Virus record (IMG/VR): IMGVR_UViG_3300030103_002256
Coordinates: 1 to 26,370 of that record
Source of the DNA: a virus
DNA length: 26,370 nucleotides
Reading direction: 5' to 3' (one strand)
The stretch's first letter is position 1; every line of letters begins with the position of its first letter. The notes under the pieces are model-generated. The model saw only the letters and a list, made by a program, of their open reading frames with translations, searched no databases and was not told where the DNA came from. Positions 11,936 through 24,422 of the stretch are shown here, in pieces. Both the position numbers and the translations under genes were made by a program.

Positions 11936-12313
11936 ATGGAGAATAGTTTATTAGTACACAAACATTTAATTATTAGAGCAGAAGCTGCACGTCCACCAAT
12001 GGACGAAGAGCAACTTACTGAATGGATGAAAGAGTTTGTGGAATCTATAGATATGAAAATATTTATGGGTCCTTATGTTAAGTATTGTAGAATGCCAGGC
12101 AACAGAGGTATCACAGGTGTTGCAATCATTGAGACTTCACACATCACTATGCATATATGGGACGAACCTAATCCTGCACTAATGCAGTTTGATGTTTATA
12201 GTTGTGGTGAGTTTGATGTAGAAAAAATCTGTAATAAAATAAAAGAAGACTTTGCTACTACTAAAATAGAATATAAATTTTTAAACAGAGAAACTGGGCT
12301 TGTGGATTTGTAA
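11936..12313 (+). CDS. speD: S-adenosylmethionine decarboxylase-like protein (125 aa)
   Basis: Probably an auxiliary metabolic gene for polyamine synthesis: decarboxylation of S-adenosylmethionine to the aminopropyl donor for spermidine. The short bacterial/archaeal class is indicated by GNRGITGVAIIETSHITMHIWDE, here residues 55-77, with S68 at the self-cleavage and pyruvoyl position, H73 matching the processing histidine, and C90 in DVYSCG matching the active-site cysteine. KHLIIRAEA at residues 9-17 corresponds to the usual N-terminal strand. The residue before the cleavage serine is Thr, where typical family members have Glu, and the N-terminal GC motif is absent. It may therefore be a diverged active form or a relative with another substrate. 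It lies between the endolysin and the minus-strand island. No clear Shine-Dalgarno sequence is seen. Confidence 0.75.
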   Translation: MENSLLVHKHLIIRAEAARPPMDEEQLTEWMKEFVESIDMKIFMGPYVKYCRMPGNRGITGVAIIETSHITMHIWDEPNPALMQFDVYSCGEFDVEKICNKIKEDFATTKIEYKFLNRETGLVDL

Positions 12314-12346: not shown

Positions 12347-12553
12347 CTACCTACACATACAGCCAATAAAGTTACCACTACCATCATTCATTATATGTAA
12401 GTTTAATTTATCTACATATCCTGTTAATTTTAATCTAAGGATGTCACATAAATCAAAACAATCTACTTCACCTGTTATTACAATACCTTCTAATAGTTTT
12501 TTTGTAACAGGTATAAGATGATATAAACCATCATTTAAAATTATTAAATCCAT
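12347..12553 (-). CDS. Small hypothetical protein after the SNF2 helicase (68 aa)
   Basis: I do not recognise a function. The sequence is hydrophobic-alternating (MDLIILNDGLYHLIPVTKKL, GIVITGEVDCFDLCDILRLK) and ends with NDGSGNFIGCMCR, giving four cysteines in total, two of them near the C-terminus. I chose the ATG at 12553, preceded by GGAGAG; an in-frame TTG at 12562 would add three residues. The start overlaps the last codons of the helicase gene by 10 bases, so the two are translationally coupled as a two-gene minus-strand operon. Its stop lies 33 bases from the convergent plus-strand stop at 12313. Confidence 0.65.
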   Translation of the reverse strand: MDLIILNDGLYHLIPVTKKLLEGIVITGEVDCFDLCDILRLKLTGYVDKLNLHIMNDGSGNFIGCMCR

Positions 12554-13977
12554 TCTCTCCAATCCTCATCCATTATTGTATTAGCTATATTCATTTTAGA
12601 TCTTAAAGCTTTTACTATCTTTTCATCTACAGTTTTTGGTGCTATAAAATCTACGTATGTTACTGATTTATTCTGACCTATTCTATGTGCTCTATCTTCT
12701 GATTGTAATCTTTTTTCTAAGTCATACCCATTAGAATAATAAACAACAGTATTAGCACAAGTAAGAGTAATACCATACCCACCAGTTTGTGGATTACCTA
12801 TAAAGAATCTAGCTTTGGAGTTAGGATCTTGAAATTTTTCTATATTTTCTTGACGTTGTTCTGACGAAATTGCGCCATAATATTGTACTATAGAGTCTGC
12901 ACCAAATTCATCGGTAATAACTTTAACTATATTCTCTATATCATATACATAGTTAGCCCAAATAATTACTTTACCTTCTACTTCATCTAGTAATTCAACT
13001 AATTCTTTGAGTCTATTATTTTTTATTTCTGTAATAGTGCCATCATCATTTCGTAAATGACCACAAGTTATCTGATGTAGTCGCATCATTTGTGTAAGTA
13101 CGTGGGGAGCTGTAGCCATCTTACCTTTTAGAGAGGCGAGGGCCGCGGATTTCATAGTAGAATAAGCTTTGCTTTGTTCATCTGTAAGATCTACTTCACG
13201 TCTAATGTAAACTTTATCCGGTAAATCTAGGCAATCATCTTTAAGCACACGATAAGAAAAAGATTTTAGTTTGTCAGCTAGTTCATCGAGTCTTTTATAA
13301 CTACCTATTAATTGTACTCTTCTACCACCAAAGTTTCTGTCAATCATATTGGCATATCTATTTCTGAATGCATAAAAAGAATCATAACCTAAAAGATAAG
13401 AATTTAAAAAACCACATTGTGTATATAAATCTAATGGTGATTTAGTTACAGGAGATCCTGTAAGAATTCTTCTGTATGTAGCTTCTTTACCTAAAGCCAA
13501 AATAGATTTAGTTCGTTTAGCATTTGGATTTTTGATTGTAGTAGACTCATCAATTGCAAGCATTGTTTTATGACAACGCATAAACTTAGCTGCAAAGTCT
13601 AATCCTTTTTTAGTACTTAACGCTTCAACATTTATAATTAGGATGTGAAGGTCATGTCCTGTTTCAAATAATGTTTGATACTCTTTATCCTTTTTCTTTG
13701 ATGTTAAAGCAGTCCATAATACCATTTTGGGTTGTATGTGACTAGATAAATGATTTGGAATTTCTTGAGAATACCAGTTTCTATAAACACCTTTTGGTGC
13801 TACAATAACGGCCCCATTTATTTTACCTTTATCATATAGCATAGCCATATTATCAACTAACACTTTTGATTTACCTGTACCCATCTCCATAAAATAACCA
13901 TACTCAGTTTTATCCCACGATTTTTCTAACGCAGTTAATTGATGTGCGTAAGGCTTAGTCTTAAATTTATAATTCAT
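12544..13977 (-). CDS. SNF2-type superfamily 2 helicase (477 aa)
   Basis: An ATP-driven DNA translocase or helicase of the SNF2/RapA kind. Motifs in order: Q-like AHQLTAL (11-17), Walker A EMGTGKS (31-37), VAPKGVYRNW (59-68), Walker B DEST (143-146), LTGSP (172-176), and a C-terminal helicase lobe with IIWANYVYD, GGYGITLTCANTVVYYS (motif V region) and the SNF2 arginine-finger motif HRIGQ (431-435). Length equals the minimal two-lobe form without extra DNA-binding domains. In marine phages such genes sit among replication genes; here it is alone on the minus strand with its own promoter. It could remodel protein-DNA complexes during replication or displace host proteins. The start ATG is at the edge of the divergent promoter region. 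Confidence 0.9.
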   Translation of the reverse strand: MNYKFKTKPYAHQLTALEKSWDKTEYGYFMEMGTGKSKVLVDNMAMLYDKGKINGAVIVAPKGVYRNWYSQEIPNHLSSHIQPKMVLWTALTSKKKDKEYQTLFETGHDLHILIINVEALSTKKGLDFAAKFMRCHKTMLAIDESTTIKNPNAKRTKSILALGKEATYRRILTGSPVTKSPLDLYTQCGFLNSYLLGYDSFYAFRNRYANMIDRNFGGRRVQLIGSYKRLDELADKLKSFSYRVLKDDCLDLPDKVYIRREVDLTDEQSKAYSTMKSAALASLKGKMATAPHVLTQMMRLHQITCGHLRNDDGTITEIKNNRLKELVELLDEVEGKVIIWANYVYDIENIVKVITDEFGADSIVQYYGAISSEQRQENIEKFQDPNSKARFFIGNPQTGGYGITLTCANTVVYYSNGYDLEKRLQSEDRAHRIGQNKSVTYVDFIAPKTVDEKIVKALRSKMNIANTIMDEDWREWI

Positions 13978-14045: not shown

Positions 14046-14447
14046 ATGAAAAATAAAATATTTGAATTATATAAACCTAACTCTTTAGCAGAGTTTTTAG
14101 AATTTTATAAAAACAATCCTGACGAGAAATTTGTTTATGTTGCACAAGAACCACCAAGACACATTAATATATTAAGTGCGTCTGATTATGGTTACTTAGT
14201 TTTTTGTTTGCCTAATACAGGACCAGAGTCGCAAGCAATATATTCAACACAACCTTTCGTAAGAAAGATGAAAAAAAATTTAAAAGAATTTAGACAACAA
14301 GATTATTTATTAGCAATAGGAGATCCTATTATAATTGGGATTTGCAATATTGTTATAAGTGATGTAACAAACGGAAAGTTTAATGTTCTTAAATGGGAAA
14401 AAAGAGAAAGTAGATACTACCCATTGGAAGTTGACTTTTATAACTAG
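14046..14447 (+). CDS. Hypothetical protein at head of replication operon (133 aa)
   Basis: I do not recognise a function. The sequence is compact and globular, with aromatic-rich strands (FVYVAQEPPRHINILSASDY, GYLVFCLPNTGPES) and a basic helix (FVRKMKKNLKEFRQQDY), and no membrane segment. I chose the ATG at 14046; an in-frame TTG at 14028 would add six residues but falls within the promoter-like region. The leader carries AGAAATTAGAATG (14036-14048), which recurs before the primase gene. As the first gene after the divergent promoter it could be an early or regulatory protein. Confidence 0.7.
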   Translation: MKNKIFELYKPNSLAEFLEFYKNNPDEKFVYVAQEPPRHINILSASDYGYLVFCLPNTGPESQAIYSTQPFVRKMKKNLKEFRQQDYLLAIGDPIIIGICNIVISDVTNGKFNVLKWEKRESRYYPLEVDFYN

Positions 14448-23356: not shown

Positions 23357-23423
23357 TTGTCTGCCGGAGCTTAGAAAGCTCACGGCAAACAAAAGGTGTG
23401 AGAAGAGATCTTCAGAATACACC
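23357..23423 (+). ncRNA. Tandem hairpins, 3'-end structure or small structured RNA
   Basis: The first hairpin spans 23357-23392. TTGT/ACAA, TGCCG/CGGCA, a G-C pair and AGCTT/AAGCT give 15 pairs with one mismatch, one bulged A (23382) and an AGA loop. The second spans 23395-23423: GGTGT/ACACC outside and GAAG/CTTC inside around AGAT, joined by internal loops. No T-run follows either hairpin. The structure could end the small-gene transcript, protect its 3' end, or be a structured RNA. Confidence 0.5.
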
Positions 23424-23445: not shown

Positions 23446-23475
23446 TTGATTTATTAATGTAGTTTCCCATATATT
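23446..23475 (+). promoter_or_regulatory. Sigma70-like promoter before the RHH/SET operon
   Basis: TTGATT (23446-23451), an 18-base spacer and TATATT (23470-23475), placed 35 bases before the ATG at 23510. The lead-in ACACTTGA is shared with the promoter-like sequence at 26260. A short direct repeat, AATACAAAT at 23476-23484 with ATACAAAT at 23487-23494, follows and may be an operator. Confidence 0.6.
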
Positions 23476-23509: not shown

Positions 23510-23683
23510 ATGGCAGATCCTGCAAAATTTAAGTCGGTTAGTGTATCCGTATCGACTTATAAAATACTAAAATATCTTGGAGACGGAAAAATTACAGATG
23601 CAGATTTAACTGTAAGTAAAACAATTGAAAGTCTAGCGAAAAAAGAAGGTAAGAAACATGGATACAAAAACGGAAAAGCGTAA
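23510..23683 (+). CDS. Ribbon-helix-helix-like small regulator (57 aa)
   Basis: FKSVSVSVSTYKILKYL (residues 7-23) fits the RHH pattern of a DNA-reading beta-strand followed by helix A, and LTVSKTIESLAKKEGKK (33-49) fits the turn and helix B. RHH dimers repress their own promoters, and this gene is the first after the promoter at 23446, so autoregulation through the AATACAAAT repeats is plausible. AAGTGAGA precedes the ATG. It overlaps the next gene by 26 bases. Confidence 0.6.
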   Translation: MADPAKFKSVSVSVSTYKILKYLGDGKITDADLTVSKTIESLAKKEGKKHGYKNGKA

Positions 23684-23801
23684 AACTATTTGCCCACAAT
23701 GTAAGGGTAATGGCTATGTTAGAGCTCTTGTTGAAGAAGGTAGAGAAGAGTTGATAGCTGATTGTAATAAGTGTGATAACCAAGGAGAGTTAAATGACTG
23801 A
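23658..23801 (+). CDS. DnaJ-type zinc knuckle protein (47 aa)
   Basis: Residues 12-19 (CPQCKGNG) match the CxxCxGxG repeat of the DnaJ cysteine-rich domain. A second knuckle C36-C39 (DCNKCDNQGEL) completes one zinc site. This is half of the normal DnaJ zinc region, with no J domain. It probably binds a protein or nucleic acid. It starts inside the RHH gene and overlaps the SET gene by eight bases, so the three are coupled. Confidence 0.65.
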   Translation: MDTKTEKRKTICPQCKGNGYVRALVEEGREELIADCNKCDNQGELND

Positions 23802-24216
23802 ACTAAAAGACGAACATTTTGAAGTTATAAGTGAGAATAGAGGAAGAGAACACGAAAAGAAAAATTATAGACCTCTATCCCATGATCTATTTATTGAAGA
23901 AAGTTTAATAGATGGTCAAGGTTTATTTGCATCAACAGATATACCTAAAGGAACTGATCTAGGTATTTGTCATTATCAAATAGAAAAAGATAAGATGAGT
24001 CCGGTTGAATTAATAAGAACACCACTTGGTGGATTTATTAATCATGAGCCACTTGTCTATAACAATATGGAAGAGAAGAAAGAACTTTCTGGTCCTAATT
24101 GTGAGAAAATAAAATCTAGACCCGATGGTGCAAAGACTGAATGGAATCTCGTAACGCGTAAGGATATTAAAGCAGGTGAAGAGTTAACTATTCACTATAG
24201 CTTTTACAAAATATAA
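23794..24216 (+). CDS. SET-domain protein, putative lysine methyltransferase (140 aa)
   Basis: A minimal SET fold that would transfer methyl groups from S-adenosylmethionine to protein lysine. Visible blocks are GQGLFAS (41-47, usual GxGxxA start), RTPLGGFINHEP (75-86, standing for the R/G-x-x-NHS block), GPNC (100-103), and AGEELTIHYSFY (127-138) with the conserved GEEL...Y and catalytic-type Y135. NHE replaces the usual NHS. The length is about that of a bare SET domain without flanking zinc domains, and the neighbouring zinc knuckle protein could supply that part. The target is unknown; a host chromatin-like or translation protein is possible. It joins the next gene in a TAATG overlap. Confidence 0.8.
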   Translation: MTELKDEHFEVISENRGREHEKKNYRPLSHDLFIEESLIDGQGLFASTDIPKGTDLGICHYQIEKDKMSPVELIRTPLGGFINHEPLVYNNMEEKKELSGPNCEKIKSRPDGAKTEWNLVTRKDIKAGEELTIHYSFYKI

Positions 24217-24422
24217 TGGACGACAGAGGACCCGCAGATCTAGAAAGAAGAATAGATGATCTTAAAAAAAGAGTTGATCATTATGAATCTTTAGATAAAC
24301 AAGAACTCATTGACAATCTAACTATGACTAAAGCTCAGTTACTTACAGCGGAGAAAGAAATAGATAGACTCAATGAGTATGTCCAAGTAATGGAGTTAGA
24401 AGAAATATCTAAAAAGTTATAA
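24216..24422 (+). CDS. Small coiled-coil protein (68 aa)
   Basis: Nearly the whole protein is coiled coil: DLERRIDDLKKRVDHYESLD and KAQLLTAEKEIDRLNEYVQV have regular heptad hydrophobics with acidic and basic flanks. There is no enzyme motif or membrane span. It is coupled to the SET gene and the HNH gene by TAATG overlaps on both sides, so it may be an assembly partner of one of them. Confidence 0.7.
   Translation: MDDRGPADLERRIDDLKKRVDHYESLDKQELIDNLTMTKAQLLTAEKEIDRLNEYVQVMELEEISKKL

Follow-up and report, generated by a model that had tools for sequence, protein, structure and literature searches.

Close to the end of a viral DNA of 26,370 nucleotides (the whole of which is called here the window), three overlapping genes encode an RHH-like protein, a small zinc-knuckle protein and a SET-domain protein. 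Do these make up a coupled protein-methylation module, with the zinc protein completing or targeting the enzyme, or is the SET protein an enzyme in its own right, whose partner should be sought elsewhere? The answer depends on where each gene occurs in other phages and in SAR11 chromosomes, and on a short peptide at the N terminus of the SET protein.

The locus and its SET protein

The features of the locus are as follows.

23446..23475, plus strand: sigma-70-like promoter match TTGATT-18-TATATT, 5′ of the trio (pattern match, count not above chance)
23510..23683, plus strand: RHH-like protein, 57 aa, beginning MADPAKFKSVSVSVSTYKILKYL (ORF list)
23658..23801, plus strand: DnaJ-type zinc-knuckle protein, 47 aa (ORF list, cysteine motifs)
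23794..24216, plus strand: SET-domain protein, 140 aa, termed ORF3 (Pfam, AlphaFold, PDB match)
23794..23865, plus strand: N-terminal tag MTELKDEHFEVISENRGREHEKKN, residues 1–24 of the SET protein (common to unrelated pelagiphage proteins)
23866..24213, plus strand: SET domain proper, beginning YRPLSHDLFIEES (the point at which untagged homologues begin)
24216..24422, plus strand: predicted coiled-coil gene, 68 aa, overlapping the SET stop (ORF list; family F5)

The three open reading frames all lie on the plus strand and overlap by 26 and 8 bases, in agreement with the coordinates of the original prediction. A single promoter had been placed before them. A matching sequence is indeed present, but it is no better than chance, since the region has two such sites and shuffled sequences give 4.8. 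Just 5′ of the trio (23360–23390) there is a GC-rich hairpin, TGCCGGAGCTTAGAAAGCTCACGGCA, which has no T run. The overlapping run goes past the trio, with an ATG at 24216 on the SET stop followed by ORFs from 24422 (HNH) and 25110 (exonuclease), and the trio is thus not a closed unit. The 68-aa coiled-coil family is also found after a tagged 60-aa protein in other phages. Elsewhere in the window an SNF2-type helicase (12544–13977) and a small ORF (12347–12562) are on the minus strand; the remaining gene array is plus-strand.

A search for the same trio in other marine phages, as had been suggested, showed that the RHH, zinc and tagged SET genes recur in this order in at least 12 distinct loci, with SET identity falling to ~71% and the 8-base zinc/SET overlap kept in most of them. 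This ordered recurrence indicates that the trio is more than chance. Relatives of the window phage infect SAR11, a group of marine alphaproteobacteria.

The description of the third product as a bare SET domain of 140 aa is borne out by Pfam, AlphaFold and the PDB matches. The protein passes the PF00856 cut-off (35.3 bits against 22.4, E = 1.7e-8), with residues 41–135 aligned to positions 1–104 of the 105 in the profile. The characteristic motifs are all encoded within 23866..24213: GxGLFA, GGFINH (containing N83 and H84), PNC and EELTIHY (containing Y135). In an alignment with 19 homologues, G41 and G43, N83-H84 and Y135 are invariant or nearly so. When the SET protein was modelled alone, as originally proposed, a confident SET-fold core was predicted by AlphaFold with pLDDT ~90. 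The best match in the PDB is vSET (3kma), with NSD1, MLL1 and LegAS4 close after; there are 147 matches at E ≤ 0.001, and the best 50 of the 147 are all SET-domain structures. After the tag, the SET part comprises 116 aa, too short for pre- or post-SET zinc clusters, and a post-SET CxCx4C motif was not found in the sequence of the 140-aa protein. Judged by its motifs and its modelled fold, ORF3 is a minimal vSET-like protein, with predicted protein-lysine methyltransferase activity. The same phage has an S-adenosylmethionine decarboxylase gene (PF02675, E = 3e-18) at 11936–12313 of the window, in addition to the SAM-using SET enzyme.

Separate occurrence of the zinc-knuckle and SET genes

The 47-aa protein contains one CxxCKGNG and one CxxCxNQG motif (C12-x2-C15-KGNG ... 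C36-x2-C39-xNQG), and all four cysteines are invariant in an alignment of the family. Its score against the DnaJ central domain PF00684 is 26.3 bits, compared with a curated cut-off of 32.7, and it has two CxxC motifs where four CXXCXGXG repeats define that domain. The DnaJ-type zinc site that had been described therefore stands as a knuckle with four invariant cysteines, but not as a DnaJ domain. The 57-aa RHH-like protein had no match in Pfam or PHROG; its gene is kept directly 5′ of the zinc gene, with SET present or absent.

Among close relatives the phage SET gene keeps its place beside the small zinc-knuckle gene. We counted 20 distinct loci in which the RHH-zinc core is followed by 2.6 kb or more of sequence. 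SET directly follows the zinc gene in 12 of these; seven have no SET and carry a tagged gene further downstream, and the remaining one has neither SET nor tag. Examples of the RHH-zinc pair without SET are L136, L258, L260, L261, L263, L264 and 023Pt_psg01. Conversely, SET homologues without the zinc gene are present in L023–L049, Kolga, P-SSM7 and P-RSM6, and homologues at 30–48% identity begin directly at the SET domain, among quite different genes. In the contig L022 a 145-aa gene (2532–2969) stands between zinc gene and SET.

The SET family of ORF3 is common to many marine phages and SAR11 chromosomes. Of 99 SAR11-family genomes sampled, 53 have a match to the SET profile. The host class closer to the phage proteins is a bare SET of 142–146 aa directly 3′ of alanine dehydrogenase; in L347, L348, L349, L351, L352, L354 and L355 SET follows alanine dehydrogenase, and in most of them the genes overlap. 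Host and phage proteins belong to the same subfamily (MYKPLP...LTIKKSPIEGLGL...IRTPLGGFYNHS) at ~33–37% identity. In a phylogenetic tree all the tagged SETs together with that of L022 form one clade (100/99), and the host SETs lie across a weakly supported branch (58/87) from those of phages. Enzyme-regulating methylation is possible for the chromosomal SET beside alanine dehydrogenase. Our literature search found no paper on SET proteins in pelagiphages or cyanophages.

The occurrence of SET without zinc, and of the RHH-zinc pair without SET, together with the spacing in L022, leads us to regard the zinc protein as a neighbour of the enzyme and not a needed part of it; on the gene distribution in phages and in SAR11 chromosomes we reject it as a SET subunit. 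The original proposal, that the 47-aa protein completes or targets SET and that the two jointly form a protein-methylation module, is in some accord with the tagged-SET clade, where RHH and zinc genes lie directly 5′ and the 8-base overlap is usually kept. In L216 (9486–9713), moreover, a CxxCKG zinc knuckle directly follows the tag in one fused protein. The window encodes a protein of this type separately, 5′ of its tagged SET; similarity between the L216 knuckle and the window's zinc protein spans 14 residues only, and is a lead, not evidence. The proposal is nevertheless very improbable. Distant phages and SAR11 chromosomes have SET but not the zinc gene, the pair is found without SET, the two are parted by another gene in L022, and vSET, the best match by structure, works as a bare SET (PMC7019647), contrary to the premise that SET enzymes require zinc domains at their flanks.

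A single-copy peptide on exchangeable carriers

The distinctive part of ORF3 is its first 24 residues. A tblastn search with the SET protein also matched the starts of unrelated ORFs, in residues 1–24 only. A degenerate DNA pattern for this tag, which has the consensus M[TA]ELx[DE]EHFEVI[SD]xN[KR], located 97 matching stretches among viral contigs. FEN exonucleases and additional small proteins came from a second pattern. The tag escaped the original prediction because it is visible only against unrelated proteins of other phages. We found nothing on it in the literature.

Past residue ~24 the tagged proteins separate into BLAST clusters, giving ~13 carrier clusters in all. The certainly unrelated carriers are SET, FEN exonuclease, RecA-dependent nuclease (PF16786), the CxxCKG zinc knuckle and several small proteins of helical or coiled-coil type. 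Distant relationships are possible between some of the small helical clusters. Many carriers have only ~30 residues past the tag and resemble a bare helix or a coiled coil. Among 118 distinct proteins N15 and K/R16 are both present in all 118, at positions that the search patterns left free, and position 20 is H or Y in 93. Where the same tag residue is found across families, codon identity is about that of the background. With residues fixed while codons vary in this way, constraint acts on the tag as a peptide, and we reject an RNA or DNA signal. In AlphaFold models the tag lies within a confident long helix in the 57–61-aa family, and forms a weak separate helix before SET in ORF3 (pLDDT <50).

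We searched 50,697 phage records with a longer tag query. Nine records matched, all of them Pelagibacter phages: HTVC027P, HTVC111P, HTVC112P, HTVC202P, HTVC011P (two records), Eyrgjafa, Gjalp and Lederberg (with a degenerate tag). The tag-bearing isolates, all SAR11 phages, belong to unrelated phage groups. The sole non-Pelagibacter phage record was at E = 8, and we reject the presence of the tag in non-SAR11 virus groups. The DNA pattern gave one convincing case in 85,000 bacterial and archaeal genomes, on a phage-like contig from the genome of a single Pelagibacter cell, the other matches in that set being only chance-like. Mimicry of a host protein was also rejected, as the tag profile matches only the phage-like contig among 297 SAR11-family genomes.

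A profile search of whole records gave exactly one tag match in each of the 34 tag-positive records, using a threshold of E ≤ 0.5 (with E-values to 1e-17). Twelve genomes other than these records, of which 11 are pelagiphage or pelagiphage-like, are without any tag match, and the tag is thus not essential for SAR11 infection. The genomes without a profile match include Kolga, the cyanophages, 023Pt_psg01, Lederberg and eight further pelagiphages. Comparison of eight tagged genomes or large contigs (BLAST, E < 1e-4) revealed no protein common to them all. Many contigs are fragments, from which the absence of a gene carries little weight.

The family phrog_25889 (~95 aa, xWxDIxGDxGH), with members in HTVC011P (14139–14426) and L001 (3164–3454), is a hallmark of SAR11 phages: 22 of its 23 records are from Pelagibacter phages. 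Its gene is often near or directly 5′ of the tagged gene, and is directly 5′ in the FEN group and G008. We rejected it as the phage partner of the tag, because it is present in tag-negative phages and absent from the complete tag-positive HTVC112P. In HTVC027P (L081, 3171–3758) a methyltransferase of another kind, Methyltransf_24-type, is encoded after the tagged 57-aa protein.

Closely related phages carry the tag on different proteins, or lack it. Relatives of the window have either a tagged SET (12 loci) or a tagged 50–55-aa coiled-coil protein encoded 1.1–2.4 kb downstream (seven loci), and none has both (Fisher p ~2e-5 with shared ancestry ignored, an optimistic value because the counted loci are related). 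In the SET genomes the alternative carrier gene is missing altogether, and not merely untagged. HTVC111P and HTVC112P have 48 ORFs in common. The tag is on the RecA-dependent nuclease in HTVC112P; HTVC111P has an untagged HNH nuclease and carries the tag on an adjoining 54-aa protein. The nuclease of HTVC026P is untagged, and there is no tag elsewhere in that genome. At one and the same genomic place, HTVC011P has a tagged FEN and HTVC025P an untagged one. SET is untagged in L022, Kolga and the SAR11 chromosomes; the L022 protein (from a 7-kb contig) nests inside the tagged-SET clade of the tree, indicating that the tag can be lost. The exchange of carriers, the tagged and untagged forms of nuclease and FEN, and the loss in L022 together characterize the tag as a separable accessory.

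Possible functions of the tag

What might a peptide of this kind do? The reading we favour, while rating it somewhat below an even chance, is that the tag is a docking helix for a SAR11-specific partner, found on interchangeable carriers, with SET possibly aimed at that partner. The phage lineage of the window would have fused a transferable N-terminal helix (residues 1–24) to a vSET-like enzyme. The tag would bind a partner present in SAR11 cells, and each tagged phage would hold one tag on an exchangeable carrier, be it a nuclease, an exonuclease, SET or a very small helical protein. Docking would bring the window's SET enzyme to the partner, whereupon the partner or a neighbour may be methylated, and the RHH-like and zinc-knuckle proteins would belong to the operon as a small-gene pair of their own rather than as enzyme subunits. 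We infer docking by the tag, the host-protein nature of the partner and the action of SET upon it. The presence of one copy per genome, on carriers with only ~30 further residues, suggests that much of the function lies in the tag, and the recurrence of enzymes among the carriers suggests that docking can also aim an activity. A point against docking is that such a signal might be expected to mark several proteins of one genome, as the capsid-targeting sequence does in T4; another is the low pLDDT of the tag in the SET model. Part of the spread of the tag could moreover be due to shared ancestry, as related phages often swap genes.

The same single copy can be read differently. The effector could be the tag, acting as a short helix that inhibits or adapts a SAR11 protein, much as small phage-encoded inhibitors act on the RNA polymerase or nucleases of the host. 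The carriers, SET included, would then serve only as scaffolds for expression and stability, with activities unrelated to the tag. The brevity of many carriers, the mutual exclusion of two carriers in sister phages and the position of the tag inside the confident helix of the 57–61-aa family are all consistent with this, but the recurrence among the carriers of enzymes that act on nucleic acid or protein (SET, FEN and RecA-dependent nuclease) is then unexplained. We consider it rather unlikely as it stands, yet the docking and effector views are close. Passive inheritance is improbable: the tag would then mark a mosaic junction, where recombination at a hotspot in the early operon joins one conserved gene start to various downstream genes, the peptide itself doing little. 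Gene exchange is wide among pelagiphages (PMC9599517), the carriers of the window group lie at comparable operon positions with the same coiled-coil family after the SET and 60-aa groups, and L022 lost its tag where another gene was inserted before SET. Yet a junction would not fix residues while leaving codons as free as background, the tag is at different loci in sister phages and in groups with few common genes, and a universal single copy is unexpected of it. Least probable of all, and remote in our judgement, is a capsid- or virion-targeting signal, by which the tagged protein would be packaged and injected like the internal proteins of T4. The T4 signal likewise stands as a short peptide at the N terminus of unrelated proteins (PMC7697877) and PBCV-1 packages vSET into its virion (PMC7019647), but the tagged genes sit with replication and other non-structural genes, there is one tagged protein per genome against several in T4, a FEN exonuclease adjoining DNA polymerase is unlikely cargo, and the tag is common to phage groups with few shared genes.

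Docking thus remains our preferred reading. A more general proposal, which we advance tentatively and with less confidence than docking itself, is that of a portable anti-host peptide, a docking or inhibitory helix of ~20 residues held in single copy on an arbitrary, exchangeable carrier by unrelated groups of SAR11 phages. SAR11 is the commonest bacterium of the ocean, and a single-copy peptide of its unrelated phages is a direct handle on what phages bind in the host, testable as a synthetic peptide. The reading of the locus is also corrected, SET belonging to a widespread marine family and not forming half of a zinc-dependent pair.

Several known systems can be compared with these proteins. 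The vSET protein of Paramecium bursaria chlorella virus 1 (3kma) resembles ORF3 as a viral, bare SET without pre- or post-SET zinc, and needs no zinc domain (PMC7019647); it differs in coming from an algal virus, in trimethylating histone H3 Lys27 and in lacking an N-terminal tag, and is only ~20% identical. The SET of the SAR11 alanine dehydrogenase operon is a bare domain of the same subfamily, but has neither tag nor zinc gene. Those of Kolga, P-SSM7 and P-RSM6 (phrog_28741) are homologous bare SETs with 38–43% identity to ORF3, but they begin at the SET domain, have other neighbours and are annotated as hypothetical. A survey of domain mosaicism in phage proteins (PMC10684548) described unrelated proteins sharing one fragment, with hotspots in receptor-binding, lysis and replication proteins; its sequence-based test took in shared fragments from 50 residues upwards, and a tag of ~20 residues would therefore escape it. 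The tag itself, found at the N terminus of ~13 BLAST-separable carrier clusters, can be set beside the capsid-targeting sequence of T4, a short N-terminal peptide that is portable between unrelated proteins (PMC7697877). The T4 sequence is however ~10 residues long, is cleaved by the prohead protease and is present on several proteins per genome, whereas the tag is found once per genome in 34 of 34 records.
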